This document shows, piece after piece, positions 1,589 to 42,320 of a stretch of 64,000 nucleotides of DNA. A model generated the notes under the pieces. It had not been told where the DNA came from and searched no databases. It saw only the letters and a list, made by a program, of their open reading frames with translations. The DNA comes from an uncultured Chthonomonas sp. (GTDB taxonomy: Bacteria > Armatimonadota > Chthonomonadetes > Chthonomonadales > Chthonomonadaceae): assembly GCA_903919615.1 (NCBI GenBank), contig CAIXIX010000521.1, positions 1 through 64,000 of the forward strand, written 5' to 3'. The number at the start of each line of letters is the position of its first letter. Position 1 is the first letter of the stretch. Made by a program: the position numbers and the translations under genes.

Positions 1589-3106
1589 CTACACCGGCTG
1601 GTGAAAACCCATGCAGTCCACGTAGATATCCTGAAACTCTGGATCTGCAGTGAGAGAGATATGCGTCGACTTACTCAATATCTCCTGCTGCTCATCACTT
1701 CCTTTTTCGCCAGCGAACAGGGCAACCTTCGCTCCCAGCAGTGCAGAGTTGCCAACGGGCTGCACACGATCCGGGTCAAATTCCAACAGGCCAATCCTTC
1801 TCGCAGAGTTTCTGTCGATGTAGTTCCCGAAAGCGCCCGCAAGATAGATGTGTTCCAGATCCTCGGATGTTGTTCCCCACTGCTTTAGCAGGATCTTGAT
1901 TCCGGCAGCGATAGCGCCTTTGGCTAGCTGCAGTTCTCGAATGTCGGTCTGTGAGATTTCCACCGGGTCTCGCAGAGGCAGACTGTCTCCTTTGATCAGA
2001 CGGCCGCCTGGTTTTATCTGTTTTAGCTCCAGGGCCACAGCAACGGCATCTACAAGCCCACTGCCACAGAGGCCGGTTGGTTCGGCATTGCCAAGAACCT
2101 CGCAAGTGATCTCTTCGGAATCGCCTACACGGGCAACTTTCCATATTGCGCCGGATGCCGCTCGCATCCCCATCGAAATTCTCGCGCCTTCAAAGGCAGG
2201 GCCGGCGGCGGTTGAAGCACAGAGAATGCGATCGCGATTGCCTACGACAATCTCCCCATTGGTGCCTAGATCCACAAACAGGCTCGGCCGCTCGAAGCGA
2301 TGCAGGCCGGTGGCAAGTAATCCTGCCAGTATATCGCTGCCCACAAAGCCACCCATGCAGGGCAGAAACTCAATTACTGCATCAGGCACCGAATCCCAGC
2401 CAAGGCTGGCAGCGCTCATCGTCTGCAATCCGTCATTAACCGGTTCAAACGGATATGCAGATAGCGGAGTGAGGTCGATTCCGCAGAAGAGGTGGTGCAT
2501 TACCGTGTTGCCTACAAGGCTCACTCTCCGCACAGATTCTGGTGCAACCCTGGCTGAGGTTGTGAGCTGGTGCAACAGCGCTCCCACCTGGCGAAGGATG
2601 ACCTCCTGCAGCTGTTGTGCGCCATTCTCAGCGACCGCGGTCTGAACGCGGCTCATCACATCCCCGCCAAATCGCGCCTGTGGATTCAATCCGGTGCGCA
2701 CGCCCAGTACCGCTCCGGTCTGCATATCCAGCATTTGCGCCACGACCGTGGTGGTGCCTATGTCTACAGCCACACCAATTCCGTCTTGTGGCGTAAAGCT
2801 GAACGCGGTCTCATTGGTGAGGATAGCAGCATCCCACTGCCGCAATTCGAGCGTTGTGTCCTGCTCAACATGGCACTGGCACGCGAGGCGCCAGCCATCC
2901 TTCAACTCAGCCTCGGTTAGCCTCTCGCGCTGCGCATCGTTAATTTCGAGATTTCCGGAGATAGTTCGTACGCGGCATCCCCGGCAGCGCCCCTGGCCGC
3001 CGCATGGGAATTCGACGGAATGCTCAAAAAGAATATCCTTCAGCGCGGCGCCGTGCGCGGCTTCCAGCGTTGCGCCAACGGGATTGAGCGTTATTCGATG
3101 CTGCAA
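1589..3106 (-). CDS. Reductive activator of corrinoid proteins (2Fe-2S ferredoxin + DUF4445 ASKHA)
   Basis: This 505-residue enzyme should restore inactive Co(II) corrinoid protein to Co(I), using ATP and low-potential electrons. The N-terminal 90 residues form a plant-type 2Fe-2S ferredoxin domain with Cys35, Cys41, Cys44 and Cys76. From about residue 110 the DUF4445 ASKHA-type ATPase begins (AVDIGTTTVVAQMLD), with a second nucleotide-binding segment (LFVDLGTNGEIV) and late motifs GLCGSGLVDAV and IYLAGAFGNYID. This layout matches RACE proteins of O-demethylase systems and differs from the 4Fe-4S RamA of methanogens. The start is TTG at 3106, with GGGAG upstream, inside the 3' end of the previous gene, so translation is coupled. 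It is the expected partner of the corrinoid protein at 11988-12623. Confidence 0.9.
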   Translation of the reverse strand: MQHRITLNPVGATLEAAHGAALKDILFEHSVEFPCGGQGRCRGCRVRTISGNLEINDAQRERLTEAELKDGWRLACQCHVEQDTTLELRQWDAAILTNETAFSFTPQDGIGVAVDIGTTTVVAQMLDMQTGAVLGVRTGLNPQARFGGDVMSRVQTAVAENGAQQLQEVILRQVGALLHQLTTSARVAPESVRRVSLVGNTVMHHLFCGIDLTPLSAYPFEPVNDGLQTMSAASLGWDSVPDAVIEFLPCMGGFVGSDILAGLLATGLHRFERPSLFVDLGTNGEIVVGNRDRILCASTAAGPAFEGARISMGMRAASGAIWKVARVGDSEEITCEVLGNAEPTGLCGSGLVDAVAVALELKQIKPGGRLIKGDSLPLRDPVEISQTDIRELQLAKGAIAAGIKILLKQWGTTSEDLEHIYLAGAFGNYIDRNSARRIGLLEFDPDRVQPVGNSALLGAKVALFAGEKGSDEQQEILSKSTHISLTADPEFQDIYVDCMGFHQPV

Positions 3107-4128
3107 TTGCTGCTCCCAGCTAGAGTATGGCTGGCGGCATATTGCACCAGCGCTTTCAGATTTTCATGTGGCGTGTCCCGCACTACTTCGCAGCCAGCGC
3201 CACAAATCCAGCGGGCGCCAGCCTGCTCGTGGCACTGTTGCAGGGCTGAAAGGACCTCATCGGGAGTGCCATTTCTCAGCACTCTCACCGGGTCGATATT
3301 ACCAAGTAAAATCTGATCAGGCCCCATTGCCTGCCTGCCTTCGCCTACCGGGGCAAGAAAGTCCAGGTCTACAATGTCGCAGCCGAGCCTTCCCATTCCG
3401 GCGAGAATCTTGCGTGTGTTTCCGCAGATGTGCAGGCGCACGCGAGCGCCGAGCGCATGCACGCCATCGACCATCCGTTTTTCGAACGGGTAAACATACT
3501 TTTCGTAGATTCTCGGGCCAACCAGGGATGCAGCCGCATCGCCAATTCCGATGCTTTTCGCTCCTGCCGCAACCTGATGGCGCGCAAACTCTAGCTCCAT
3601 GGCAAGCACGAACTCAAAAAGGTCGGTCACAAATGCCGGGTCATCAATAAAATCGACCATGAGATTATTGATGCCGCGAAGGTCTGCTGCTTCAGCGCAC
3701 GGGCCTTCGATCCAGCCTTCAACCTGCTTCTCACCGCCCACGCGCTGCTTCAATAGTTCTAAGGCTCTTAGCCGATTTAGCATTCTGCCGGCCGTACAAT
3801 CGGGAATCGCTAACGACGTAAGTGCCCGTTTATCGATAAGCAACGCGTTTGATTCGTCAATTGCGGGAGGCGAATTGGGATAGAAAACCACTGTGGCGCC
3901 ACAGTCTGCTGCCTCGGTCGCCGGGTCGGACATCGTATTGACATAGTCAAACCCAAAGGCTTCCGCTGTTCTTACCTGACCCTCTGCCATCACGCGATAG
4001 TCAGTGGCATAGTCCAGATACTTCGCGCCAATAAAGTCACAGGCAAACTGCATCGTTATAGGCATACAGGGAAGCTGGTCCGTTCCACTTCCGTTCAGCA
4101 GCGCCTCAATACGCTCAACGCCGTTCAT
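3091..4128 (-). CDS. UroD-family (MtaA/CmuA-type) corrinoid methyltransferase, full zinc site
   Basis: This 345-residue protein belongs to the uroporphyrinogen decarboxylase fold family used as methylcobalamin-dependent methyltransferases. It has the classic zinc ligands of MtaA/CmuA: His233 and Cys235 (RLHICGN) and Cys313, five residues before TPHENL. It is therefore the best MtaA analogue of the five paralogues in this operon, able to move a methyl group between the corrinoid protein and a thiol or similar acceptor. The acceptor in a bacterium is unlikely to be coenzyme M and is unknown. I chose the ATG at 4128, preceded by GAGGTG; an in-frame GTG at 4155 is possible. The 3' end overlaps the activator gene by 16 bases. 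Confidence 0.87.
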   Translation of the reverse strand: MNGVERIEALLNGSGTDQLPCMPITMQFACDFIGAKYLDYATDYRVMAEGQVRTAEAFGFDYVNTMSDPATEAADCGATVVFYPNSPPAIDESNALLIDKRALTSLAIPDCTAGRMLNRLRALELLKQRVGGEKQVEGWIEGPCAEAADLRGINNLMVDFIDDPAFVTDLFEFVLAMELEFARHQVAAGAKSIGIGDAAASLVGPRIYEKYVYPFEKRMVDGVHALGARVRLHICGNTRKILAGMGRLGCDIVDLDFLAPVGEGRQAMGPDQILLGNIDPVRVLRNGTPDEVLSALQQCHEQAGARWICGAGCEVVRDTPHENLKALVQYAASHTLAGSSNCSIE

Positions 4129-4163
4129 ATCCACCTCTGTATGCGCGCCAGTCACATTGCGCG

Positions 4164-5243
4164 CTACGCATAGCTGCCCAACTCTTTAGCCAGCGAAACG
4201 ATATTCTGGAAATCCTGCAGGCTAACACTCGACGGCACCGAATGGTCCGAGGAAAAGATGTAGCCGCCGCTCTTCTTCATTTCGGGCACAACAGCGCGCA
4301 TCTCCGCTTCAATTTCGTCCGGTTTATCCCACAGTACCGCGTTGATTCCGCCATGAAATACGAGCTTGTCGCCGAACTTGCCCTTGAGCGCAACAGGATC
4401 CATCCCTGCCTTTACCTCGAGAGGATTCAGCGCATCCAGCCCGATCTCAATTAGGTCCGGAATGAACGGATTTACGTCTCCGCACGAGTGCAGGTGGGCT
4501 TTGATACCCTTCGAATGCGCCCATTCGATAGCACGAGCGTGATAAGGCTTGAGTACTTTACGGTAGGTCCTGAGCGAGAAGAACTGACTATGCTTATAAC
4601 CCATGTCGTCTGGCCACATAATGCTGTCAAATCGATAGCCAGCATCCCATACCGCATCCAGCAGTGCCAGATTAAGTTCGAGCATGTGCCCGAAGATATC
4701 CATTAGCCATTCTGGCTGCTCTATCAGCGCAAGCAGCACTCGGGTTGTTCCAACCGTCCAGGAGTGGGTAACGTCGAAACCGAACCAGAGGCCACCCTGA
4801 ATCCAATCTCCACGTTCTTTCCATTTCGGGTAGTTCTGTTTGAGATGCTCCCAAGGAATCCGGTCCTGCTGAACCGACATGCGTGCTTTTGCGGCATTCC
4901 AGCTATCCCAATCCACGATCGTGAAATCGAGAAACTCGGGCACGCCGCCTGCGTGCTTCCAGTCCTTTAGCGTTGCTCCATATGCCGTTGTATGGATGCG
5001 ATACTCCGTGGTCTCCTCGATCACCTTTACGGGATAGCGCGGGCTCAGATCCACGCCAATCCCAGATACGGTGTCCAGCCCAAAGAACTCTCTAAAGTCG
5101 ACTCCATCGGGCATTCCTTCATGTCGCCAGCGCTCAATGGTCGATCCCCAGGGATCGTCGATAACTGGGATACGGTCTGCATCTCGATGTTCAAACATCC
5201 GTTTGAACCGTTCATTTGACGTCATTCGGTCTGCATCAGCCAT
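4164..5243 (-). CDS. UroD-family methyltransferase, HxC site without the third cysteine
   Basis: This 359-residue UroD-fold protein keeps His252 and Cys254 (HLHSCGD), but the C-terminal position where MtaA has its third zinc cysteine reads SSDHSVP, with Asp333-His334 there instead. This subtype is common in bacterial clusters for demethylation of unknown substrates. It could be a substrate-side methyltransferase rather than an MtaA equivalent. The ATG at 5243 is preferred because AGGTGAT lies four bases upstream; a GTG at 5252 is also open. It lies 35 bases upstream of the next UroD paralogue and 31 bases downstream of the DUF1638 gene. Confidence 0.85.
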   Translation of the reverse strand: MADADRMTSNERFKRMFEHRDADRIPVIDDPWGSTIERWRHEGMPDGVDFREFFGLDTVSGIGVDLSPRYPVKVIEETTEYRIHTTAYGATLKDWKHAGGVPEFLDFTIVDWDSWNAAKARMSVQQDRIPWEHLKQNYPKWKERGDWIQGGLWFGFDVTHSWTVGTTRVLLALIEQPEWLMDIFGHMLELNLALLDAVWDAGYRFDSIMWPDDMGYKHSQFFSLRTYRKVLKPYHARAIEWAHSKGIKAHLHSCGDVNPFIPDLIEIGLDALNPLEVKAGMDPVALKGKFGDKLVFHGGINAVLWDKPDEIEAEMRAVVPEMKKSGGYIFSSDHSVPSSVSLQDFQNIVSLAKELGSYA

Positions 5244-5274
5244 ATCGATCACCTAGTTTCTTGGTGAGCTCGCG

Positions 5275-6012
5275 CTACTCAATGCCAACGATCCCATCGT
5301 CGTACTTACCAATAACGTGTTTGCCTGGCGGAATGACGAGGAAATCCTCGTCGAGCCACTCCCCATCAAGCATCTTCTGAATGAGCCCCATATCGCCAGC
5401 GACCTTCTCAAATTTCCAACCGCGACTCTCAGCGTCCATTTTGGTCTGCTCTTCGTAAGAGTTATTCGGTTCAATACCCATCTCGATGAAGGTGAACTGC
5501 CCATAGTTATGCTTGTCGTCACCAAGCATCCCGTAGAGGTAGCGGCCGTTGTCTTCCCCGTACTTTCGGATAAACTCCTCAAGCTTAGTATTCATCCCGG
5601 TTTGCTGTTGAATGGAGAGCTGCATAAGATCTCCGGTTGCGGCGCCGCGATCAATCCATCCTGTCGTTTTGAAGTAGACGCCCGGGTTGGCGTTGAAGTA
5701 ATCGATGTACTTTTGTCGGCTGCCCATAAACAGTGTGATGCAGTCGTGCGCTCGCGGCAATACAAGCGGTATGGTTCTTGCCTGCAAACCGGATAGGCCG
5801 TTGTTGCAGAGGCCGTAGCCTAGCAGGATCGCGTCGTATATCGACTCGTCCACACGATCAACGGCTTCTTGCATTCTGCTTAGCATGCCAGCAGCGCCGA
5901 TATCGTGGAGACCCTTGGGCAGAAACTCGATGTCTATCAGGTGCCGAGACGTGCTGACGGCCCGGCACATCTCCCGGTAGAACACCTCGCAACTGATGAG
6001 TTTGAATCGCAT
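5275..6012 (-). CDS. DUF1638-domain protein
   Basis: This 245-residue protein matches what I know of DUF1638: it opens with KLISCEVFYRE, then DAILLGYGLCNNG, then a 'PRAHDCITLFMGS' segment with conserved His, Asp and Cys. There is no signal peptide or membrane segment, so it is cytoplasmic. DUF1638 genes recur beside corrinoid proteins and UroD-type methyltransferases, and this one sits between two such genes. Its biochemical role is not established. The conserved Cys and His residues would allow metal binding, which is my inference. The start ATG at 6012 has GAGAAT upstream. Confidence 0.8.
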   Translation of the reverse strand: MRFKLISCEVFYREMCRAVSTSRHLIDIEFLPKGLHDIGAAGMLSRMQEAVDRVDESIYDAILLGYGLCNNGLSGLQARTIPLVLPRAHDCITLFMGSRQKYIDYFNANPGVYFKTTGWIDRGAATGDLMQLSIQQQTGMNTKLEEFIRKYGEDNGRYLYGMLGDDKHNYGQFTFIEMGIEPNNSYEEQTKMDAESRGWKFEKVAGDMGLIQKMLDGEWLDEDFLVIPPGKHVIGKYDDGIVGIE

Positions 6013-6131
6013 AGCTATTCTCGTTTATGTGCGTTGTTCGTGGACTTCACGATCTAGGCGCAGCAAGCAGCGCCACTACCACCTGATGAGCCTGTGCAAT
6101 TCGTGTCGCAGTATGCGGCGGCGTTACGGCC

Positions 6132-7301
6132 TTACTGGCCGAGGTGCCAGGAGTATCTCTCGCGGTCCTCGGAGGATGCATTTTCATCGACAACGCCTGT
6201 TGGCTTCAGATTTGGCAGTCCGCGACCCCATACACGCTTCGCTTCGTTTAGGTAGAAGATGTAGTTATCCAGCGGCACATCCGGTGGAACGCGATGGTCC
6301 GGCGTAGGTATAAAGCCACCGTCTTCGACTAGCCAGTTCAACCTTTCCACTTCGCGAGTAATGTCTGCGGTAGTGCCAGCTAACATGCGTTTTCCAACGC
6401 CTCCAACCATTAGCAGGTCTCTGCCGTACTCTTTTCGATAGGCGATAGGATCCGCGCCCCATGTTCCTATTTCGATCGGGAACATCGTATTGACGCCGCC
6501 CTCAAGCCAGAGCGGAAGAAGCTTGGACATGTCGCCATCGCAATCGAGAATTACAACATCGCAGCCGTATTTGCGGAGCAGATCGGTGACGCGTCTGTAC
6601 TGGGGCACCAGTACTTGCTTGAAGACGCGCGGGGAGAGGAGCGGACCGGCCCGATAGCACATGTCCTCCCACATCATTGCATACTCAAACTTCACGCCAG
6701 ATTCAAGCGCAGGAGTAATGCTCTCGATGATGCAATCGGCGACGGTTTCTACCATCTCTTCGAAGAGTGGTCGGTCATCGAAAACGAGCATTGAGACCGC
6801 TTCCAGCCCCATCCAGTTGCGAATCCAGCCGTACAGAGAGCCTGCGTTGATACCAAGCGGATAGTCTCGCGCCGGGTTCTGATACCGCACAAGCTGCTTC
6901 TGCCAGTGACTGCCGTAACGCTCTTTGCTGTTACCGTTCAGGCGCCACTTGAAGTCCTTCTCCCAGGTATCACGATCCTTGAGCGAATGGTCCAGGTGCC
7001 TCGGAATCGAGCCGAGAAACTTCCCTTGCTCTTTGGTTACGCCTTCCCCATCTCGCACTATTTCGCTGTCGCCCCTGTCTTCAATCACGACGTGTTGAAA
7101 CGCTGGAAACAGATGTACATTCACGGGCGCGACGTGCCACTGTGGGTCCATCCCAAAGAAGGCATCCGGATCACATTCGCATGGCAGGCCGTAACGCTCC
7201 CAAATCACGAGCGTCTCGTCCCAGAATCCGAAATCCATAATCGGGCAGCGATCTCTGGGCTGGTAGTGCATGGTTGCTACAAAACGGTCTCTCGCATTCA
7301 T
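6132..7301 (-). CDS. UroD-family protein with Asp-for-His/Cys substitutions
   Basis: This 389-residue protein has the UroD fold signature (for example FEYAMMWEDMCYRAGPLLSP and a C-terminal GGFIPTPDHRVP), but the zinc motif HxCG is replaced by Asp253-x-Asp255-Gly (LDCDGD). A related DxDG or DSDG form is common in large UroD families of uncultured heterotrophs. The metal site must differ from MtaA or be absent, so its activity cannot be assumed. The ATG at 7301 is preferred because AGGA lies seven bases upstream; the longer frame to 7331 has no such site. It lies between the homocysteine methyltransferase and the DUF1638 gene. Confidence 0.83.
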   Translation of the reverse strand: MNARDRFVATMHYQPRDRCPIMDFGFWDETLVIWERYGLPCECDPDAFFGMDPQWHVAPVNVHLFPAFQHVVIEDRGDSEIVRDGEGVTKEQGKFLGSIPRHLDHSLKDRDTWEKDFKWRLNGNSKERYGSHWQKQLVRYQNPARDYPLGINAGSLYGWIRNWMGLEAVSMLVFDDRPLFEEMVETVADCIIESITPALESGVKFEYAMMWEDMCYRAGPLLSPRVFKQVLVPQYRRVTDLLRKYGCDVVILDCDGDMSKLLPLWLEGGVNTMFPIEIGTWGADPIAYRKEYGRDLLMVGGVGKRMLAGTTADITREVERLNWLVEDGGFIPTPDHRVPPDVPLDNYIFYLNEAKRVWGRGLPNLKPTGVVDENASSEDRERYSWHLGQ

Positions 7302-7346
7302 CTCGATATCCTGTACCTGTTCAGCGTGCATTCGTGAGTTTGCCGA

Positions 7347-8225
7347 TCAAACGGCAGAGATTTTTACCTTTAGCGCATGAAGATAGGCCGGGCTCGTGCC
7401 GCAGCATCCTCCGATAAACGACGCACCAGCCTCAACGAGCCTGTACGCGTTTTCAGCGAATTCTGTGGGCGATGTGTTGTAAATCGCCTTCCCGTCCTGC
7501 AAAATCGGCAACCCTGCATTGGGCTTAACCCAGATGGGAGTACCCGGCGCAGCGGCCTTAAGCCTGATGCAGATCGGCAGCATCTGCTCCGCGCCCTGGC
7601 CGCAGTTGGATCCGATACCGTCCGCGCCTTCGCCTACAAGCCGCTCTGCTGCCTGCTCTGGAGTGGTGCCCATCATGGTGCGATCAAGGTTGCGTCCGGC
7701 ATCGTAGGTCATGCACACAATCACCGGGAGCCCCGTCGTTTTCGCAGATGAAAGAGCGATGCATGCTTCGTCCAGATCAGACATTGTCTCGATAACGATC
7801 GCATCGGCGCCACCCTCAGCCAGCGCAGCAGCCTGTTCCGTGAAGGCCTCACGCGCCTGATCTGTGGTGATCTCGCCCATTGCCAGCATCTTGCCAGTAG
7901 GCCCCATCGAAGCGAAGACGGCCGCAATGCTTCCCGTGGCCTTGCGTGAAATCGCGGCGCCTTCACGATTAATCTCGTATGCCTGTCCAGAGAGACCGTG
8001 CCGCTCCAGCGTAATGCGAGATGCCCCGAACGTGTTGCTTAAGATGACCTGGCTACCCGCGTTTACATACCCACTGGCCACCTCGCACACACTCTCCGGA
8101 TTGGTTAGGTTCCATGCATCCGGGCAGGCGCCAAACGCGAGACCGCGCGCCTGAAGCTGGGTGCCCCACGCGCCGTCAGTGAGTATCGGTCCATTTGCCA
8201 GTATATGCTCAAGTTTAGGGTTCAT
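7347..8225 (-). CDS. Homocysteine S-methyltransferase family protein
   Basis: This 292-residue protein has the complete zinc-thiolate site of the homocysteine methyltransferase domain: Cys208 (GSNCG) and Cys274-Cys275 (GGCCGT). Length and layout fit stand-alone MHT or BHMT-like enzymes and the N-terminal domain of MetH. The B12-binding and folate domains of MetH are absent, so the methyl donor must be a separate protein or a small methyl compound. Inside this operon, the obvious donor is the methylated corrinoid protein at 11988-12623. The expected product is methionine. The start ATG at 8225 has GAAGG seven bases upstream. Confidence 0.9.
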   Translation of the reverse strand: MNPKLEHILANGPILTDGAWGTQLQARGLAFGACPDAWNLTNPESVCEVASGYVNAGSQVILSNTFGASRITLERHGLSGQAYEINREGAAISRKATGSIAAVFASMGPTGKMLAMGEITTDQAREAFTEQAAALAEGGADAIVIETMSDLDEACIALSSAKTTGLPVIVCMTYDAGRNLDRTMMGTTPEQAAERLVGEGADGIGSNCGQGAEQMLPICIRLKAAAPGTPIWVKPNAGLPILQDGKAIYNTSPTEFAENAYRLVEAGASFIGGCCGTSPAYLHALKVKISAV

Positions 8226-8234
8226 CGTTTGCCT

Positions 8235-9431
8235 TCACGCCGCCACTTCGGGTCGGCTATAGATTCCATACTTACGTCCCGAATGGTACATCGCTTCTGT
8301 ATTGGCAAGAGGCGTACCCGGAGCAAGGTTGTTGCCTTCTCGGAGTACAAAGCCACCGCCTCTCATCACACCGCATTCAAGAATGCGCTTTGTCTCATCT
8401 TCGACCTCCTGCACGGAGCCAGTTCTTAACAGCTCAACGTGCGGACCGCCGAATAGCTTAACATCCTCGCCGAGCTCTGCGCGCATTGCGGCAAAATCGA
8501 TAGGGAAACCTGTATCGAAAGTGCGGATGTTCAACTCGTCCCGCAAGGTTTTGAAGTGGCGAGTAGCATTTCCGCAAAGATGAATCGATCCCGGTGCTTC
8601 GGTTCCAAAGTGCCTGTAAATTCTTTGATGATAGGGCAGCAGATGCTCGAGATACATCTTAGTTGAAATCAGGGCGATGCTGTCATCTGCTATACCGAAG
8701 CCCGGCTGCGGGATTGATATGCCGGAGAGTCGACGCCACGCCGACATGCGTACGATCGTGGCTTCCGTTATGAAATCGAGCAATTTATGCAGCCGGTCCG
8801 GCTCGCTTGCCATTGCCGTACAAACAAAAGCAGCGCCAAACAGGTTACAGGCTACCGTCATTGGCCCATCGCTACCGCATCCGAATCCGGCCGGATTGAT
8901 CTCAATCGGCAATCCGAGGAACTCCTCTTTCTTCGCTCGGCATTTGAACTGATTCAAGTAGTCCTGACCGCGGGCCAACACTCCGCCGAAAGGATCCGGC
9001 AAGCCATGCTCCATCACCCGTTCCGGGTTATCTGCAAAGCAGGGCCGTGTGTCTGGCACTTCTCCAGGGCAGTAGGTAAGCTCACATCCAAACCAGGCAG
9101 CCTCATAATAGTTTTGAAAGTCGACGCCAATCCGCCACTTCTCGGGCAGACCGAGTTCCGCATCCTGAAGGAGATTGTGTCGGCTCCAGCGCGCGAACCT
9201 CAATTGGGCTTCGAACATGATATCGGGATTCTGCGTGTACTTTTTGAAGTCGAGCCCGCATGGATTCGCGTCCCTATTTAACATGAAATAGCGCGTGTTA
9301 GTGCCAAGGATGATTGGAACGCGAGCAGGCGTGCCAGCGTGGAAGGCGCTCCACGTTTCGCGGACCTCCGCATTGTGCGCTTCAAAATCGAATCCGTTTA
9401 ATCTATCGTTCTCTCGAAGTCCCGTCTTCAT
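8235..9431 (-). CDS. UroD-family methyltransferase, third ligand replaced by Asn
   Basis: This 398-residue protein keeps His284-x-Cys286 (SIHLCGN). At the place of MtaA's third zinc cysteine it reads EGNNLAPGTPLANT, so asparagine stands where Cys precedes the TP motif. The remaining UroD features include the 'PYHQRIYRHFG' segment before the metal motif. A two-ligand site, or one completed by a side chain from elsewhere, is implied. The start ATG at 9431 is well set by GGAG six bases upstream. It ends nine bases before the homocysteine methyltransferase start, so the pair may be translated together. Confidence 0.84.
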   Translation of the reverse strand: MKTGLRENDRLNGFDFEAHNAEVRETWSAFHAGTPARVPIILGTNTRYFMLNRDANPCGLDFKKYTQNPDIMFEAQLRFARWSRHNLLQDAELGLPEKWRIGVDFQNYYEAAWFGCELTYCPGEVPDTRPCFADNPERVMEHGLPDPFGGVLARGQDYLNQFKCRAKKEEFLGLPIEINPAGFGCGSDGPMTVACNLFGAAFVCTAMASEPDRLHKLLDFITEATIVRMSAWRRLSGISIPQPGFGIADDSIALISTKMYLEHLLPYHQRIYRHFGTEAPGSIHLCGNATRHFKTLRDELNIRTFDTGFPIDFAAMRAELGEDVKLFGGPHVELLRTGSVQEVEDETKRILECGVMRGGGFVLREGNNLAPGTPLANTEAMYHSGRKYGIYSRPEVAA

Positions 9432-9449
9432 CGCGGTCTCCGTTCGATG

Positions 9450-10517
9450 TCAATTAGCAATGCAGCCCGCACTCTTCAGCAGGGCTCTCGCTTCACGTTC
9501 TGTGGGGCAGCTTGTAATGATGAAAAGCCCTTCCGGGCCAACGGCATCGATTAGAGGCAGCACCTCGTGGGGCGCCACATCGATGGCCTGCACACTCTTG
9601 CCTGCTTTCTTTATCGTTCTATAGAGGTCATACCATTCTGGCGATCCACCGCCCGGAATGCCGGCCTGTGGCGTCCATTCGATTGCCTTGATGGCCTCAA
9701 TCTCCAGCAGATTTGGAAGCTGAATGATTGCCTGTGTGCCATCCAGATGGTACATCGCGTAGTCCAGATAGTCGCACTGTCGAGTAAGTGTAGGCGTTAC
9801 ATATTTGCGGAACATCCGGGGGCTAATCATGCAGCAAAAATCACACTGAACCTTCGCCGTTTTGCCTGGCCCCCAGAGCTGGAAGGCATAGAAACTGATC
9901 CCTCCCCAGGGGTCCTGAACGATCGGCCACATCTCTTCATAACAGCGGATATATGCATCGCAGATCTCTTCCAAAGAGCGTTCCACCCACTGAGGACGCT
10001 CCACCAGATCCATCATCAGAATCTGCGAGCCCCTAAGCTGCGCAAGCGTGTCAATGTTTTCGACCAGGTCTGGGATTGTCACGAGGTAGCGGTCGCTGGA
10101 GTCTGCCATGCCTGCCTGCATAACCTCGATGTGCCGCTGCCACCACATGCTGTTTCGATCGAGACCAAGCGGAGGATGGTTTTCTGGATTATCGATGCAG
10201 GGGTCGTACCACACCGTAGTTTCGGCGATATGCCCCGTTGCGCCCATGAAGAGGCCGAGGCTGCCAGGCCCGCCAATATCCGTGTTGAACATCGGCAGCG
10301 CCGCTCCGCCGAAATAGGTGTTTGCAAGGCGATGCCGCTCTGCCGTAACGATATAGCGTGTATCCAGCCGTCTGCGCTCCGCAGAGGCGCCTTTTTCAGG
10401 CGCCTCTACGTTTTCCCATGGCGTATCAGCTGGTGATGTCACGTAGAGGGCAAGCCCTGTTCCGTTCCACCAGTCGGTTAGCGCCACTCTTGCCGCGGGC
10501 CAGTCGTCTTTCCACAC
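9450..10517 (-). CDS. UroD-family protein, HLDG variant
   Basis: This 355-residue UroD-fold protein has His257-Leu-Asp259-Gly (YHLDGTQAI) where MtaA has HxCG, so the first cysteine ligand is aspartate. A cluster of cysteines (Cys226, Cys228, Cys229) lies earlier. Related proteins are often named 'trimethylamine corrinoid protein 2', a label without proven function. The start is GTG at 10517, overlapping the TAG stop of the MtaB-like gene by one base (TAGTG), so the two are likely coupled in translation. This suggests a direct working link with MtaB. Confidence 0.8.
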   Translation of the reverse strand: MWKDDWPAARVALTDWWNGTGLALYVTSPADTPWENVEAPEKGASAERRRLDTRYIVTAERHRLANTYFGGAALPMFNTDIGGPGSLGLFMGATGHIAETTVWYDPCIDNPENHPPLGLDRNSMWWQRHIEVMQAGMADSSDRYLVTIPDLVENIDTLAQLRGSQILMMDLVERPQWVERSLEEICDAYIRCYEEMWPIVQDPWGGISFYAFQLWGPGKTAKVQCDFCCMISPRMFRKYVTPTLTRQCDYLDYAMYHLDGTQAIIQLPNLLEIEAIKAIEWTPQAGIPGGGSPEWYDLYRTIKKAGKSVQAIDVAPHEVLPLIDAVGPEGLFIITSCPTEREARALLKSAGCIAN

Positions 10518-11932
10518 TAGGCTAGTCCATACTCCGATGGAAGATAAGGTGCATCCTGCAACTGGTCGCGCATCGATTCACACATCGCCTCTTCGGAATC
10601 TGGAAGCGAGTCTGCCGCCCTGCACATCCTGTCCATCCACTTCACTTCGTTGCCGGCAATCCGCAACTCTCCGCTGGCCTGTGCAGACTTGAGCTCCGCC
10701 AGGGCTGCAGCGACCGCATTGCGTGTCCGAAGATAGGGGTTCTCCTCCTTGATAATCTCGGCGCTTATCCTCATTACAACATCGGGCCGAAGTACATACG
10801 CCTGCGGATCGAGCGCGGAGTCCGATTCTACAAGCCAGTTGCGCATGCGCAGTCGATCGGAGTCACCGCCGGCGGAAGCCCGATTTAACAGGCGGCAATC
10901 GTAAACAAGCTGCTCGAGGGAGACGGTGGGTGCGTATGCACTTAACAGACGCACGTTCTGCACCGATTCGTTGGACCAGCAGTCGCATACCGCCTGAGAG
11001 ATGTTGCCCACGGAACTTAGGTGGGCGCAAGCGGCGCTGCGGCCTTCCATCGATATTGGTGCGCCCGTAATTGCTTTGATGTATGGACCCTCGTAGGCAC
11101 AGTCTTTCGAAGGACCAACGGCTCCACATTCGTAGGCCACCAATCCTCGCGGCACCGACGCAACCCTGACAACCGCCGCAAATACACGCGGGACCATCCG
11201 TTGCTCTGCAAGCACCATCGCTGTATTTGCGAAACCGCATGCGGTGTCGCCAGCGGGCGTAATTCCCGCACCACGGCACACGGACACGATGTGAGACCAC
11301 AGAAACTCCATGTCTCGTGGAGCAAGAACTCCTAGCGCAAAGATCATGGTACGAAGGTCTGCATTCATTAACCCCTCGTCACAGATCTCTTTGCCACCCG
11401 TAGATTCGATGGCGATTAAGTCCGCGCCAGAAGGGCCAGCAAGGTCAAATAGTCGGCACATCGAGTCCCAGTAGGGACCAGATCTCATTTTTGGCGGCCG
11501 AATATGGTCCCTGCTGTCGTTGGGAGTTAAGCGCAGCGCCGCCTTGAGCCCATAGCGATCCGAGGCTTCATGGATCCGCTCGGCGAGTATAGAGGTGATC
11601 TCTGCTCCCCACTCGGGTCGGTTGGTCATCGGAGGCAGAGTTTCGAACTCAACGAGCAGACCTGGAGCTTCTAACGCAACGGCGCGCGTGCATACTCCAT
11701 CAATCATCGAAGCGTACTGTCTTCGGATCTCTGGCCAGGTAGTTTCGTTAATGTCGATAGGAGGGAGGGTGAAGTTAATCTCTGGCACAACCGTGCCGGA
11801 ACCAATCTCAAGGCCGCGACCTACACAGATTGGGTTTGGAGCCTTACCGTAAACAAGCTCATCCACGCTGGCGACAGCCAGCGAACGGTAGGCGACCCTG
11901 GAGGGGGCCGCTGTAGTACTAAGAGCGCTCAT
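10517..11932 (-). CDS. mtaB: Methanol:corrinoid methyltransferase (MtaB family)
   Basis: This 471-residue protein matches MtaB, which breaks the C-O bond of methanol and methylates its corrinoid protein. Expected zinc ligands are visible: Glu176 (IESTGGKE), Cys232 (GDTACGF) and Cys278 (GPSKDC; Cys269 is an alternative). Length agrees with the family. It lies 55 bases after the corrinoid protein gene, as mtaB and mtaC are neighbours elsewhere, and is followed with one-base overlap by a UroD paralogue. The ATG at 11932 has AGGTG upstream. The natural substrate could be methanol from pectin demethylation or a different methoxylated compound, since MtaB-like proteins with other substrates exist. 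Confidence 0.88.
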   Translation of the reverse strand: MSALSTTAAPSRVAYRSLAVASVDELVYGKAPNPICVGRGLEIGSGTVVPEINFTLPPIDINETTWPEIRRQYASMIDGVCTRAVALEAPGLLVEFETLPPMTNRPEWGAEITSILAERIHEASDRYGLKAALRLTPNDSRDHIRPPKMRSGPYWDSMCRLFDLAGPSGADLIAIESTGGKEICDEGLMNADLRTMIFALGVLAPRDMEFLWSHIVSVCRGAGITPAGDTACGFANTAMVLAEQRMVPRVFAAVVRVASVPRGLVAYECGAVGPSKDCAYEGPYIKAITGAPISMEGRSAACAHLSSVGNISQAVCDCWSNESVQNVRLLSAYAPTVSLEQLVYDCRLLNRASAGGDSDRLRMRNWLVESDSALDPQAYVLRPDVVMRISAEIIKEENPYLRTRNAVAAALAELKSAQASGELRIAGNEVKWMDRMCRAADSLPDSEEAMCESMRDQLQDAPYLPSEYGLA

Positions 11933-11987
11933 GTGACACCTCGAATTACACGGGCCGATGCCTTCTGGCAGCTCGGCCCGGTTTAGA

Positions 11988-12623
11988 TCACGCCGGTATC
12001 AGGCTGCGAGCGGTTCGCACTGCGCCACTGGCGTTGTCACTGAATGCGTCCGCGCCGATTTCATCTGCGTAGCGCTGCGTTACTGGCGCGCCGCCAATCA
12101 TCACCTTCACACTGCCTCGGACTCCCTCGCTGCTCAGGGTGTCAATGATCGACTTCATTCCCGGCATGGTTGTGGTTAGCAGCGCAGACATCGCAACGAT
12201 CTGGGCGTTATGCTCTTTGATTGCCGCAACGAACTTCTCAGGCGAAACATCGACGCCAAGATCGATCACTTCGAAGCCGCCACCTTCAAGCATGGCAGCG
12301 ACGAGGTTCTTACCGATATCGTGAAGGTCGCCGCGAACCGTACCAATAACAACCTTTGCTACTGGTTCTGCTCCCTTTGCTGCGAGCAGTGGACGCAGGA
12401 TTTCAAGACCGCCCTTCATGGCGCGGGCTGCGATCAACAGCTCTGGCACAAAGTATTCGTTCTCTTCGAAGAGGCGTCCAACTTCATCCATCGCAGGGAT
12501 CATATAGTTACTAAGGATAGACTGCGGATCTTCGCCCGCATCGACTGCAGCCTGAGTCAGTTTACGTGCTGTCGGAGCGTCCCCTTCTAGAACCGCAGCG
12601 TACAGTGGGTGCTGATCGCTCAT
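11988..12623 (-). CDS. mtaC: MtaC-like corrinoid (B12-binding) protein
   Basis: This 211-residue protein carries the methyl group on a bound corrinoid. Residues 1-85 form the helical B12-binding_2 cap; from about residue 90 the Rossmann-like domain shows Asp99-x-His101-Asp-x-Gly104 (GDLHDIGKN), with His101 the lower cobalt ligand, then 'SALLTTTM' and the late IGGAP loop. This is the base-off/His-on type of MtaC and MetH. I chose the ATG at 12623, seven bases after GAGGA; the open frame runs to 12728 but its extra 35 residues match nothing in the family. It is the first gene of the operon and the only corrinoid protein in it, so all methyltransferases here probably share it. Confidence 0.92.
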   Translation of the reverse strand: MSDQHPLYAAVLEGDAPTARKLTQAAVDAGEDPQSILSNYMIPAMDEVGRLFEENEYFVPELLIAARAMKGGLEILRPLLAAKGAEPVAKVVIGTVRGDLHDIGKNLVAAMLEGGGFEVIDLGVDVSPEKFVAAIKEHNAQIVAMSALLTTTMPGMKSIIDTLSSEGVRGSVKVMIGGAPVTQRYADEIGADAFSDNASGAVRTARSLIPA

Positions 12624-12751
12624 GATAATCTCCTCATCCGCTTGCTGCACACCGCGCCTTAAAAGTCCCGACATCTGCAAAATTGCGGTGACTGGCGCGT
12701 CGCAGGCTGAACAGCACTCTAGTTGCACCAGTGAGTGGCTGCCCAGACTGC

Positions 12752-16219: not shown

Positions 16220-17377
16220 CTACTCTTCGATGATCTCGACGTTGGCGCGCGGGACAACCACTTTTCTGCCGTCCTGGAGCGTCGCTTCAAGCACGCGGAC
16301 CATCGTTTCCGATTCCACCTCTACCAGCTCAGAAGGCAGCCCGCTAACCGTACCTAACAGGCCGAAATAGGGCTCACGAATAATTCGGATCGGTGTTCCG
16401 CCCGAAAGCTGACCCCCTTCAGACTCCGCTGATATACCCTTGTCGCTGGCCGATGCGGCCGAATCCATCGGGACAATCACCTCGGGCCGAATTACTCCTG
16501 CGCGTATCTGGGTGGCTCCATTCAATGAAGCAACCTTTCCCTGCAGCGATTTTAGAAGCTGGAAGGTTCTCGCCGCCATGGCAATGGTGCCGAAGCCCTC
16601 GGTTATCAGGAGAGAAAAGGGAATCGCTTCCTGGCCGGTAATCGCGACGCCGATATCGAACCCGGGCTGATTAAGCGCTTCAGAGAGGTAATCCATCAGG
16701 TCGCGATCGACGATCCCACCGCAAACAATTCCAATTACGCCGGCGCGATCTGCCGCCCGCAGCGCTCCTGCAGAGATATTGGAGCCGCCAATTACAATTT
16801 TGCCCTTCATAATGGGCGTAATGCTTGCTTCGGTTAAGGGCTGATCCGGGCCAGAGACAGCAATGGCGATCTCACCCAACCGCTCGCCGCCCACGCCGAA
16901 AATTCCCTGAATTAAGGCGCCTTCGCAGCTTACGACAACACCCTCTTCAGGGATGACACGTGTCACTTTGCCCTTAATATAGGCATCTTTCTCAATCGGG
17001 GTTGGCGCCTGCCTAACGCCGACATTGCCCGTCGTGCTGGAGATCAGCTCAATCTTGCCCGCAAACGGAGATTTCAATTCGCTCCGGAAGAACTTGCCAA
17101 AAAGGCCCTTTGTTTCAGCAATCACGTCACCAACGGCGATGCTGTCGCCCACCTTTATCTTCAGCGATCCTGCGAGATCACCCGGCTCGACGCCTAGCCG
17201 CTCCGCTGCCTTGATGGTCTGCATGATCCCTGGCAGTTCTGTGCGAGCGACGACAGTTCCCGGCGAGACCGTATCTCCAAGCGCAACGACGACTTCTCCC
17301 TTAAGTGGAAGCCTTCGTAACTTCTCGATGGTTGTGCGGGCGCTAACTTTTAGCCCGGGCGTATAGGCAGTTCCCAT
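16220..17377 (-). CDS. Protein of unknown function with lipoyl-like segments and C-terminal KOW-like motif
   Basis: This 385-residue protein begins with two half-barrel segments like those of biotinyl/lipoyl domains (KGEVVVALGDTVSPGTVVAR; VGDSIAVGDVIAETKG) but without the modified lysine motif. The middle (GVIGIVCGGIVDRDLMDYL) is a conserved glycine-rich region, and the end resembles a KOW segment (FGLLGTVSGLPSELV; DGRKVVVPRANVEII). No signal peptide is present. I do not recognise a named function. It lies downstream of the GlmL-like gene with one small gene between, on the same strand, and a shared role with that protein is the reasonable inference. Confidence 0.7.
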   Translation of the reverse strand: MGTAYTPGLKVSARTTIEKLRRLPLKGEVVVALGDTVSPGTVVARTELPGIMQTIKAAERLGVEPGDLAGSLKIKVGDSIAVGDVIAETKGLFGKFFRSELKSPFAGKIELISSTTGNVGVRQAPTPIEKDAYIKGKVTRVIPEEGVVVSCEGALIQGIFGVGGERLGEIAIAVSGPDQPLTEASITPIMKGKIVIGGSNISAGALRAADRAGVIGIVCGGIVDRDLMDYLSEALNQPGFDIGVAITGQEAIPFSLLITEGFGTIAMAARTFQLLKSLQGKVASLNGATQIRAGVIRPEVIVPMDSAASASDKGISAESEGGQLSGGTPIRIIREPYFGLLGTVSGLPSELVEVESETMVRVLEATLQDGRKVVVPRANVEIIEE

Positions 17378-17424
17378 GAACAGTCAATCTCCTGAAAAAG
17401 CGATAGTCACTAATATTTTGCGAA

Positions 17425-18090
17425 CTAAGGCTGTTTGAAATCTTTCCGCGTCCTCACCGATACTGCGCCGCTGGCATAGAGCACCACGGTTGCCGCGTTA
17501 TCGGGATCATCCGAAAAGTGTGGAAAATCCAGAATCTTGTAGAGCGCATCGGCCGCGCTTGAGGTTCCCTGAACTGGCATATTCTGGTGAGAGTTGGACT
17601 GCGAGCCGGCATGCTCGATCAGCAGGATGAGCTGGTGCGGGTCGATCTTGTGCTTTTTGCCATCCGGGCCGATCTTCTCCTCATCCTGAATGTTGTAGCC
17701 GCCAGCGCTCTCGTTATAGATGTAGCCGACTTTTTCACCATCGCCGGGGCCGGCGAGATAGGATTGCTTACCTCCAGCCAGACCGCTGGCTGAAGGCAGA
17801 TATCCGGTTGCCGCATCGGTCCACTCTTCGGAAGGGGGCAGTTTGCCATCCCAATCAAGCGAGTAGTGGTATAGCGCCTCATACAGCGAATGGAGATTGT
17901 TTTCCGCAATGGTGATGTCGCGCTTGGCCTTAAAGTTCAGTGCAACACGATAACCGAGAAACAACAGCGGAAGCGCAATAATCAGGATAAAGACAACGAG
18001 TATGGCGTTCAAACCATACTTGCCAAACCGCAGCGTCGCTTTACGAGCAGGTTTTGGCGGTGTCGGTTCTGGCGCGACGGTATCGGACAT
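17425..18090 (-). CDS. Membrane protein with pilin-like soluble domain
   Basis: This 221-residue protein has a proline-rich cytoplasmic start, one membrane segment (residues 29-50, AILVVFILIIALPLLFLGYR) and then 'ENNLHSLYEALYHYSLDWDG', which resembles the post-helix segment of DUF1559-type pilins. It lacks the prepilin peptidase site (no GFTLIE), so it is a fixed membrane protein. The ATG at 18090 follows AAAGG; a longer frame to 18150 has no ribosome site. It lies between the GlmL-like gene and the lipoyl-like protein, and all three are probably one transcript. The function is unknown. Confidence 0.65.
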   Translation of the reverse strand: MSDTVAPEPTPPKPARKATLRFGKYGLNAILVVFILIIALPLLFLGYRVALNFKAKRDITIAENNLHSLYEALYHYSLDWDGKLPPSEEWTDAATGYLPSASGLAGGKQSYLAGPGDGEKVGYIYNESAGGYNIQDEEKIGPDGKKHKIDPHQLILLIEHAGSQSNSHQNMPVQGTSSAADALYKILDFPHFSDDPDNAATVVLYASGAVSVRTRKDFKQP

Positions 18091-18171
18091 GAAGAACCTT
18101 TCAAACTGAGTGTATCTGGCGAATGCCACAGAGCTTGTACGGAAGCTCACGGTGCAGATGTCTCACCCGGC

Positions 18172-20007
18172 TCAACTCAACGGGATGTTCATCGCCTGCA
18201 GCCACTCTTTCAGCTTAGTAATACGGAAATCATCGGCGGTCGGAATCTGCAGCGGCCGCCCCCGCGTGTCAATAATCACGCCTGTTACGCCACCCTGTAC
18301 TGTCGTGGTAATCGGGCTGCCTTTGCCTGCGCCAACGTCGAATCCGCGCGATGGAGTTACGGTTATCTCTGCCGATTCGGGCTCGCCATCCTTGCCATTT
18401 TTGAAGCCGAGCGGAAGCACCTTGATGGCTCCAAACGGAATGGCATGGGTCTCGCCCTTAAACTGCACGGATACGCAGGCTTCGCCTTCCTTTGCGGTGC
18501 CCACTGGCGCAATGCAGGTACCAAGGTAGACAAGACAGTCTCTCTCAAAGACCTGTGTAGCCGCTTCCGGATGCACTGTGGAGAGAATGCCCAACTGAGG
18601 CATCATGAAGATCGAGTCGACCGTGAGAAGGGTAAAGCCCTCGGGCTGATACGCGTCCATCATCATCAGGGCAGATTGTTCGCGCCGCGGAGCGTGCGAG
18701 AGCACGCCACCGGAGCCTACGATCATATCCAGTTTCATCAAGTTGACGAGGGTTTGGCCAGTGCCCTTCTGGTCGAAGATATTTCCGACGTTCTTCTCGG
18801 TCGCGAAACCTGTAAGCCCGCGCGCCAGTGACTTGTGATGGTCGAAGGCAAGGCGCAGCGCTTCGCGGCTTACGGCCTGTTCAATCTGCATGTCCTGCAT
18901 GCGCTGGGGAATCGTTGTCGGGCGGATCATCTTGTTGCGCAGCTGATTCCGCAGATCGGCTTCCGAAACGGCGAAAGGGAGCCAGCGCTTAATGTTCGCA
19001 ACGCCTGCTTCTGTAAGCACGTTACAGATCGAGTAGGACATTCCCAGGTTTGCGGAGACGGTGCGATTAAATATTTCGCTGAAGACTGAGAAGACGTCGG
19101 TGGTTGCGCCACCGATATCGACACCGAGGACATTGATCTTGCGCTGTTCTGCGATCGTCTGCATAATCTTGCCAACCGCGTTCGGGGTTGACATGATGCC
19201 TGCGCTGGTCCAGCTAGAGAGCTTGCCGTAGCCGGGAGCCTGCTGCATAACGTGCTCAAGAAACAGTTCATGTATCGCTTCGCGAGCAGGAAGCAGGTTC
19301 TCGTGCTCCATGGTTGGGCGAAGATTGGGGACCTGCCGCAGTGCAACGCGCGACTCCAGAAGCTCGGCAACCTTCGGATAGGCATCCTTGTTGCCGGCGA
19401 AGATAACGGGGAGATTTAGCCCGATCCCAAGCCTTGGTTTCGGGTCTGCCGAGACCAGCATTTCGCTCAGTTCAACCAGATGGTTTACCGTTCCGCCATC
19501 CGTGCCGCCAGACATCAGGATCATGTCTGGGCGAAGCTGGCGCAATCGTTCAACGCGCTGATACTCTTTGCGGCCATCGTCTACTGCAATCACATCGATG
19601 ATGATCGCGCCTGCTCCGAGTGCGGCCCTCTGCGCTGATTCTGCGCTCATCGCCTTGACGACGCCTGCGACAGACATCTGGAGCCCGCCACCTGCGCTCG
19701 ACGTGGAGAGGTAGAGGTCTACTCCGGTATTACCGTCTGTCTCAGGGGTTAGCGGCTTGCCGCCACCCTCGGAAAGAATGGTGCGGCCGCTCAGCTCTTC
19801 CACTTCACGTACAGCGTTAACTACACCAACTGTAACATCGTCGAAGGGCGCTTCCACGGTGGTGGGCGCCTCACCGCGAACGGTAAGACGGTACTGGCCA
19901 TCGGGCTGCCGAACAATGAGAATGGCTTTGGTTGTGGTGCTTCCGCAGTCGGTGGCGAGGATGGATTTTACGTTGGAAACGTCGAGTGAGTGTGCGGTAT
20001 CGCTCAT
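18172..20007 (-). CDS. Glutamate mutase L (GlmL/MutL) family ATPase
   Basis: This 611-residue protein is an ASKHA-fold ATPase of the GlmL family: phosphate-1 motif ATDCGSTTTKAIL near residue 18, 'LMSGGTDGGTVNHLVELSEM' and phosphate-2 region NVLGVDIGGATTDVFSV, followed by 'GSGGVLSHAP'. GlmL genes accompany adenosylcobalamin-dependent glutamate mutase or ornithine aminomutase and are thought to act in chaperoning or reactivating them. No such mutase is in this window, so the partner is elsewhere or different. Its conserved companion here is the lipoyl-like protein at 16220-17377. The ribosome site is weak. Confidence 0.86.
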   Translation of the reverse strand: MSDTAHSLDVSNVKSILATDCGSTTTKAILIVRQPDGQYRLTVRGEAPTTVEAPFDDVTVGVVNAVREVEELSGRTILSEGGGKPLTPETDGNTGVDLYLSTSSAGGGLQMSVAGVVKAMSAESAQRAALGAGAIIIDVIAVDDGRKEYQRVERLRQLRPDMILMSGGTDGGTVNHLVELSEMLVSADPKPRLGIGLNLPVIFAGNKDAYPKVAELLESRVALRQVPNLRPTMEHENLLPAREAIHELFLEHVMQQAPGYGKLSSWTSAGIMSTPNAVGKIMQTIAEQRKINVLGVDIGGATTDVFSVFSEIFNRTVSANLGMSYSICNVLTEAGVANIKRWLPFAVSEADLRNQLRNKMIRPTTIPQRMQDMQIEQAVSREALRLAFDHHKSLARGLTGFATEKNVGNIFDQKGTGQTLVNLMKLDMIVGSGGVLSHAPRREQSALMMMDAYQPEGFTLLTVDSIFMMPQLGILSTVHPEAATQVFERDCLVYLGTCIAPVGTAKEGEACVSVQFKGETHAIPFGAIKVLPLGFKNGKDGEPESAEITVTPSRGFDVGAGKGSPITTTVQGGVTGVIIDTRGRPLQIPTADDFRITKLKEWLQAMNIPLS

Positions 20008-23121: not shown

Positions 23122-23379
23122 TAAGTGCGCAAGAATTGCGCATAAAGGGAGCCGTGAAAAGGGATCAGGGACAAGTGAAATGCCATTGATCCTCACATCG
23201 AACTAAACCAATTACCGCATTACCGATTGCTCGATTACCTTCTTCGCCCCAGCGAAGATTGGAAGTTTGCAACATTTGCTTGACCCATGTGTCTTAATCG
23301 CGATACAATTGACGAATAGTGCAATTGTTTAGCGCAGCAGTTGCGTAGAGATATGTTTCTCGAGTGGGAGCGTGTGCAC
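23122..23379. other. Upstream region of the cytochrome/DUF1501 cassette
   Basis: No gene is supported. The promoter of the downstream four-gene plus-strand cassette is expected here, but I cannot point to convincing -35 and -10 boxes. Confidence 0.3.
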
Positions 23380-25665: not shown

Positions 25666-25858
25666 TGAGGGAAATGCAGGTGGTGGGTGGTGGGTTTTAG
25701 GATGGAGATCGTGCCTACGGGATGCCTGGCAGATGCAGAATATTTGCCGCAAAAAGACGCAAAGAAATGCAGTTGGCAGGAGCGTAATTTTCTTCTCAAA
25801 ATGAGGAGAGGTCACTTGGTAGCATACGACTTGCGCACAGAATTGCAAGGAGAATCGG

Positions 25859-27184: not shown

Positions 27185-27186
27185 CC

Positions 27187-41401: not shown

Positions 41402-41453
41402 GAAGTCAAGTACTGCTTTGGGCCGGCGATAACCTCTTAACCCAAATACCGCA

Positions 41454-42320
41454 TTAGACCGGGCGCCATGCGGCACGACTGCCATCAATTGCACAATAAA
41501 GTCGTAAATGCTCGACAACATGCGCACCGGTTCCATCCGGACGGATCAGCCAGACCGGACGCTTATCTGCACGCTTCTCCGCGTAGACCTGTCTTGCTCT
41601 TTCGGGATCGCTCCAGTACCTTTCGTCCGTAAAACGAAACGATATCCACTCACCATCCGGCGACCAGGCAGCCGGCGTTGCGATCTTCCCGAGTCGGGTC
41701 AACTGCCGTATGTTCTGCCCTTCCGCATCGGTGATGAATAGCTCCAGAGCGTCACCCACAGGATACGAATAGACTATCTGCTTACTGTCGGGAGACCAGT
41801 TAGGGAAAGTCGCCCCTACGTCACTTGCTCCTGCAACGATCTGCCGTTTGTTCTCGCCATCCAGATCCATAACGAACACCGAGACACCGCCCGTAACGTG
41901 GCCCGTAAAGCAGATCTGTTTACCATCGGGCGAGATCGTCGGGTCGTGCCCCTCGCCGAGCATCTTAAGGTCCGTACCGTCTTGCCGGATACTTGCCATC
42001 TCCGCTATTTCGCCATGCATGCCAAACACGATACGCTCACCAAACGCGGTTCGCTGCCAGCTTGGCATGTAGCATACTGCATCGGTATGGAACAGGAGGC
42101 GAACGTCATTGCCATCTGCGTTCATTACGTAGAGATTGTATTGACCATCACGGTTGGAGGTAAACGCGATTCGGTTTCCATCTGGCGACCAGCACGGATA
42201 CCGGTTATCTGAGCTGGGGCTTCGGGACAGATTGCAAGCATTTCCAGTCTCCAGATCCACCAGAAACACTTCAGTATTGTCAGTACATATGGAGGTGATC
42301 AGCATCGACGCCGTCAGCAT
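41454..42320 (-). CDS. TolB-like WD40/PD40 beta-propeller protein
   Basis: This 288-residue protein is made of PD40 repeats with the typical phrase 'WSPDGNRIAFTSNRDGQYNLYV', repeated as 'ISPDGKQICFTG', 'WSPDSKQIVYSY' and 'WSPDGEWISFRF'. It has no signal peptide. Related proteins are found next to glycosidases and may serve as oligosaccharide lyase-like or sensing propellers, but nothing here sets the ligand. AAGGAG precedes the ATG at 42320. It is followed 52 bases later by the large glycosidase gene on the same strand. Confidence 0.8.
   Translation of the reverse strand: MLTASMLITSICTDNTEVFLVDLETGNACNLSRSPSSDNRYPCWSPDGNRIAFTSNRDGQYNLYVMNADGNDVRLLFHTDAVCYMPSWQRTAFGERIVFGMHGEIAEMASIRQDGTDLKMLGEGHDPTISPDGKQICFTGHVTGGVSVFVMDLDGENKRQIVAGASDVGATFPNWSPDSKQIVYSYPVGDALELFITDAEGQNIRQLTRLGKIATPAAWSPDGEWISFRFTDERYWSDPERARQVYAEKRADKRPVWLIRPDGTGAHVVEHLRLYCAIDGSRAAWRPV

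Follow-up and report, generated by a model that had tools for sequence, protein, structure and literature searches.

Members of the UroD family that are encoded next to a corrinoid protein usually load methyl groups onto that protein or unload them from it. Among the UroD methyltransferases, a His-Cys-Cys ligand set marks the sulfur/selenium (S/Se) enzymes, and changes from Cys to a carboxylate go with oxygen substrates (PMC10418091). The UroD-family chloromethane methyltransferase CdmB contains no zinc and is probably a substrate-selecting scaffold (PMC13222342). Genetic evidence from Phaeobacter indicates that corrinoid-dependent methionine synthesis by a split methionine synthase also requires DUF1638 and RamA-like proteins (PMC5764234), and in Ruegeria an MtgC-type protein connects betaine demethylation with methionine synthesis (PMC12478193). 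The locus described here lies in the window, a 64,000-nucleotide stretch (positions 1 to 64,000 of contig CAIXIX010000521.1) from an uncultured Chthonomonas sp. of the phylum Armatimonadota, in which an earlier reading of the sequence alone (the original prediction) had proposed five UroD-family genes with different metal-ligand sets. The genes surrounding these five, which that prediction left out, give the locus its meaning: all components of a corrinoid methyltransferase system stand together in what is likely one operon, supporting the reading, which we consider rather likely, that it is a corrinoid-dependent methyl-transfer hub gathering methyl groups from several compounds.

Organization of the operon

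The operon consists of ten close genes on the minus strand (12728-1589), here designated C, B, U5, U4, H, U3, D, U2, U1 and R in order of transcription:

C, 11988-12728, minus strand: corrinoid (B12) carrier protein that has a cap domain, a B12-binding domain and a DxHxxG motif (Pfam B12-binding, B12-binding_2)
B, 10517-11932, minus strand: MtaB, methanol:corrinoid methyltransferase family (Pfam MtaB, 531 bits)
U5, 9450-10517, minus strand: UroD-fold protein outside Pfam URO-D, with His257-x-Asp259-Gly invariant
U4, 8235-9431, minus strand: UroD-family protein with His284-x-Cys286 and Asn367-Asn368 invariant
H, 7347-8225, minus strand: homocysteine S-methyltransferase domain alone (Pfam S-methyl_trans, 228.7 bits)
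U3, 6132-7331, minus strand: UroD-family protein with Asp263-x-Asp265 and Asp345-His346 invariant (start at 7301 in the original prediction)
D, 5275-6012, minus strand: DUF1638 protein (Pfam DUF1638, 116 bits)
U2, 4164-5252, minus strand: UroD-family protein with His255-x-Cys257 and Asp336-His337 invariant (start at 5243 in the original prediction)
U1, 3091-4155, minus strand: MtaA-like protein with the full His242/Cys244/Cys322 set
R, 1589-3106, minus strand: ATP-dependent corrinoid reductive activase, RACo/RamA-like (Pfam Fer2, Raco_middle, RACo_C_ter)

The successive intergenic gaps from C to R are 55, -1, 18, 9, 15, 119, 22, 8 and -16 bases, with an even base composition across the ten genes; the short gaps and the even composition make a single operon likely. 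Co-transcription of the five UroD-family genes, as originally proposed, is in keeping with this spacing (-16 to 55 bases, with one gap of 119), which is what it is deduced from. All five open reading frames were recovered at the positions first given, with three of the longest frames beginning slightly upstream of the earlier starts; for U1, the earlier start at 4128 is more likely than 4155. The real start of C is likely the ATG at about 12623. The best NCBIfam match of C is the MtgC / TIGR02370 class, at scores under the curated cut-offs of those models. The R protein possesses 2Fe-2S, middle and ASKHA domains, the full three-domain set of bacterial activases, and its gene overlaps U1 by 16 bases. 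No riboswitches were detected in the window at Rfam thresholds.

The UroD-family proteins

The U1, U2, U3 and U4 proteins matched the Pfam URO-D model with 192, 62.7, 45.2 and 94.8 bits, respectively (cut-off 23.9), and U5 had no Pfam match. Profile-profile comparison placed U5 in the same superfamily (97% for U4-U5, 93% for U1-U5). An AlphaFold2 model of U5 from a five-sequence alignment (pLDDT 77.7, pTM 0.82) retrieved exclusively UroD-family entries from the PDB in a Foldseek search at E<=0.001, with MtaA 4ay7 on top and MtaA 4ay8 and three HemE chains from 6w2o and 4zr8 as further matches. The five proteins are therefore UroD-family paralogues as first proposed, U1-U4 by Pfam and U5 by profile comparison and predicted fold. 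U1 is 25.8% identical to MtaA 4ay7 over 337 residues, and scores 160.3 bits on the MtaA/CmuA model TIGR01463 of NCBIfam, under its curated cut-off of 235.4.

Pairwise identity among U1-U5 is about 20-25%. In a tree of 101 UroD-type rows, with MtaA represented by the aligned portion of 4ay7 (residues 17-341), each of the five types formed a separate starred clade. U2 and U3 fell inside one larger starred clade, U1, MtaA and U4 formed another (97), and U5 was placed far off; the tree is a quick one, midpoint-rooted and with several long branches, so that its deep branching order is uncertain. Recent duplication as the origin of U1-U5 is ruled out by the identities and the tree together. Whether the five types form separate clades that recur together had been raised with the original prediction, and they do so: the clades are old, and recur together beside corrinoid genes in many genomes.

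Active-site residues

Invariance was counted in orthologues from other genomes, aligned family by family. The U1 set H242/C244/C322 (H/C/C) was present in 27 of 27 sequences, the U2 set H255/C257/D336-H337 (H/C/DH) in 11 of 11, the U3 set D263/D265/D345-H346 (D/D/DH) in 27 of 27 and the U4 set H284/C286/N367-N368 (H/C/N) in 53 of 53. In U5, H257/D259 (H/D) was found in all 31 sequences and the third place holds no conserved residue, a Cys there being kept in just 8 of the 31. In direct alignment, U2 H337, U3 H346 and U4 N367 share the column of the third Cys of U1. The residues read by eye in the original prediction were all correct and proved invariant within their families; the Asp-His of U3 (D345-H346) at the third place had been overlooked. 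Such constancy within deeply divergent families lies far beyond chance. U1 alone carries the His-x-Cys...Cys arrangement of MtaA and the SCMTs, which U2-U5 lack, and its grouping with MtaA and U4 in the tree bears out the earlier view that the operon holds one true MtaA-like member.

Metal binding by U1 is predicted from its full match to the MtaA set, and U2-U5 may bind metal at their motif residues. The suggestion in the original prediction that the five proteins act on different substrates may likewise hold, so that its interpretation is supported in part. A variant site does not necessarily imply a different metal, since the UroD-family protein CdmB works without zinc (PMC13222342). This protein, together with the lack of a conserved third residue in U5, is also what speaks for the variant sites of U2-U5 not being catalytic metal sites at all, with these proteins serving as scaffolds or in another function on the same fold. 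We judge this quite improbable, since only a few residues of each family are fully invariant across dozens of genomes, those of the motifs among them.

The His-Cys-Cys set of U1, characteristic of S/Se methyltransferases (PMC10418091), and its position adjoining the activase would also fit an operon that is related to the type 1 mlp clusters and salvages methylated sulfur or selenium compounds, the S/Se enzyme being U1. Elsewhere in the genome lies a SelD gene (L184; minus strand of genome contig C569:247-1188) in which the codon of the catalytic Sec/Cys is an in-frame TGA (CAG*AAKIGP); selenocysteine, and SelD as a selenoprotein, are thus probably made by the organism, and 87% of genomes with type 1 mlp clusters make selenocysteine (PMC10418091). 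Nonetheless, such a salvage role is unlikely: four of the five UroD proteins lack the His-Cys-Cys set that mlp proteins almost invariably have, the genome encodes a haem-copper oxidase and type 1 clusters are reported solely from obligate anaerobes, and no MtaB, DUF1638 or free homocysteine enzyme was seen among the core and accessory genes described in PMC10418091.

Recurrence in other genomes

The cluster is nearly whole in a locus of the same genus (L033); elsewhere in the order, and in further families of the phylum, its membership varies. The gene order C-(B)-U5-U4-H-D-U2 is retained in several genomes of the same order. U1 and U3 were each searched alone with neighbours ignored, and every U3 match of at least 50% identity was followed. 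One or more of C, B, H, D and R lay within 8 kb of the U3 orthologue in 21 of 23 genomes besides that of the window (24 loci, one genome being entered twice). No cluster neighbours were seen in the other two, L164 and L168, and L168 is truncated by the end of its contig. Of 17 U1 orthologues (about 59% identity or more), 13 had R within 8 kb, and H was nearby for 11 of 14 U5 orthologues and 9 of 10 U2 orthologues; these neighbour counts depend on the identity thresholds that we chose. Because the U1-R pair is often found away from the other cluster genes, the operon may be viewed as two joined modules, a putative donor module (C, B, U5, U4, H and U3/D/U2) and a U1-R module. Gene order and recurrence, like family, fold and conserved sites, are read directly from the sequences. 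Extra UroD types occur in related clusters (L104, L107, L120, L129 and L142), including a U2-related clade in which some members have HTDG; these are not part of the window operon.

A hint at methylated sugars comes from a related corrinoid cluster, L044, whose genes are interspersed with those for an alpha-L-fucosidase and a GFO/IDH/MocA oxidoreductase (10605-12122 and 6417-7697); an oxidoreductase of similar type occurs in L039. U3 and U5 have carboxylates in place of Cys, a feature of O-demethylases (PMC10418091). U2-U5 could on these grounds be O-demethylases of methylated sugars or other plant methyl ethers, and the operon a carbohydrate demethylation system. This seems to us an unlikely account, given that the window operon has no sugar gene and that the neighbours of solitary U4 and U5 genes are only slightly sugar-biased, with 3-4 oxidoreductases in 72 and 78 neighbours. 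Assignment of a function to U4 and U5 by the association of their solitary copies was dropped, as the neighbours are too mixed. In named genomes, U5 was found at only four loci, in Phycisphaerae and Spirochaetia, and no cluster genes were recognised near these four save a distant U2-type UroD in L032. No U4 relatives were found in viral contigs.

Methyl donors and acceptors

In alignment, the B protein keeps Glu164, Cys220 and Cys269 of 2i2x, the zinc ligands of the methanol enzyme. It is the sole MtaB of the genome, and scores 390 on the NCBIfam MtaB_Meth equivalog, under the cut-off of 720. The GSNCGQG and GGCCGT motifs of H align with the zinc cysteines of MetH (1q7m), all three of which are kept, and H has no pterin or B12 domain. 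A complete MetH is encoded elsewhere in the genome, where no MetE was found, and a housekeeping methionine synthase as the sole role of the operon is ruled out by this full MetH. The operon contains no pterin-binding module. An unlinked candidate is located at L143:662-2905 (genome contig C490), where a methyl-tetrahydrofolate:corrinoid methyltransferase-like gene (662-1552) stands beside MTHFR with its C-terminal partner domain.

The presence of its own MetH without MetE, plus this unlinked pterin-binding methyltransferase beside MTHFR, makes homocysteine and folate both possible acceptors. Were the hub to feed folate, the methyl group of C would pass to tetrahydrofolate via the product of L143:662-1552 and then be oxidised by the MTHFR encoded beside it, the route of acetogens and Desulfitobacterium; in acetogens, MTII hands the methyl group to tetrahydrofolate (PMC13391211). 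The L143 gene is indeed PRK07535-like and adjoins both MTHFR and the partner domain, and the same pair is found in one relative (L144, genome G050) on one short contig with H, U3, D, U2, U1 and R, and in another (L178) near D, C and U3. Twelve clusters of a 61-genome set, chosen for a close U5 with at least H or C nearby, bear on this question: H is present inside the operon in 12 of 12, and a third, free-standing pterin-binding gene in only 4 of the 12 genomes, with none in the same-genus genome G001. For this reason homocysteine is favoured, and folate feeding is doubtful, if still worth entertaining. Coenzyme M is unsupported as the acceptor for U1, no archaeal-type coenzyme M synthase gene (ComA) having been found in the genome by a search that covered the archaeal-type gene and not the bacterial coenzyme M route.

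The methyl-transfer hub that we favour would work as follows, the direction of each step being what we infer. R would keep the single corrinoid protein C in its active Co(I) state, with DUF1638 (D) assisting. B would load C with the methyl group of methanol, and most of U2-U5 would do so with other methylated compounds as donors, the ligand set of each tuning its active site; this donor-loading role is probable from their genomic company, given what UroD-family members encoded next to a corrinoid protein usually do. H would then pass the methyl group from C to homocysteine, presumably the main acceptor, yielding methionine. U1, which has the His-Cys-Cys set and goes with the activase as a general module, would possibly pass a methyl group to a thiol or selenol. 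Methanol and homocysteine, both of them probable, are the only substrates that can be named so far.

Several observations weigh against this hub. With a complete MetH in the genome, the methionine route of the operon is unneeded for housekeeping, and folate may be the real acceptor, given the unlinked L143 gene beside MTHFR. Some clusters hold C, U5, U4 and H without a detected MtaB, so methanol is not always a substrate. The operon has no regulator or substrate transporter that would hint at the substrates of U2-U5, and solitary U4 and U5 genes elsewhere have no consistent neighbour. The fullest form of the proposal, in which one corrinoid protein serves at least five methyl donors (four UroD-fold proteins and MtaB) and sends their methyl groups straight to homocysteine, an aerobe-capable bacterium thereby making methionine without folate from methanol and other methyl compounds, is improbable as it stands. 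If the hub is real, four UroD-family types with strictly conserved, uncharacterised sites would be placed beside their likely partners, and each could be assayed together with its proper corrinoid protein and activase. It would also tie methyl-compound use directly to methionine formation outside the strict anaerobes, and help to explain the abundance of unassigned UroD-family genes in bacterial genomes.

Other features of the window

Minus-strand genes at 16220-20007 encode a MutL-family protein (18172-20007) and, downstream of it, a protein of 385 residues (16220-17377) that matches nothing in Pfam or NCBIfam. The plus strand at 23341-28857 carries a PSCyt2/PSD1 (DUF1549/DUF1553) and DUF1501 pair and then a WD40 protein. 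A 1358-residue protein is encoded at 37460-41536 on the minus strand, with zero Pfam matches at E<=1e-10.

Comparison with known systems

No published description of this cluster was found in the library of papers searched. The operon resembles MtaABC of Methanosarcina and acetogens in its MtaB with three zinc ligands, its corrinoid protein, its MtaA-like His-Cys-Cys enzyme and its reductive activase. It differs in that its corrinoid protein is nearer the MtgC/MtbC class, and in adding four UroD proteins, a homocysteine methyltransferase and DUF1638, with no ComA found in the genome. With the split methionine synthases of Phaeobacter (PMC5764234) and Ruegeria (MtgC/MtgD; PMC12478193) it shares a free homocysteine methyltransferase, a free corrinoid protein, a RamA-like activase and DUF1638; in contrast to these, it has MtaB and five UroD proteins but no pterin-binding module, and the genome holds a full MetH elsewhere. 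The UroD-family O-demethylases and dehalogenases OdmB, VdmB, MtoB and CdmB are alike by description in pairing a UroD-fold methyltransferase I with a corrinoid protein, their sites being unlike His-Cys-Cys or metal-free, whereas the operon described here unites five UroD types.

Among published concepts, the type 1 mlp cluster (Kountz and Balskus, PMC10418091) comes closest, as it likewise has several UroD paralogues of separate lineages, one corrinoid protein and one activase on the same strand. Here, however, four of the five paralogues lack His-Cys-Cys, only U1 reaches 25% identity to SCMT over the full length, and the genome has an aerobe-type oxidase. To be recognised as type 1, a cluster needs two or more His-Cys-Cys Mlps that belong to clades Mlp2 and Mlp3; with U1 as the only His-Cys-Cys protein, the present operon is set apart from them by motif, not by tree. 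It is a real and recurrent entity, a variant corrinoid methyltransferase operon, distinct both from the published type 1 mlp clusters and from a housekeeping methionine synthase.

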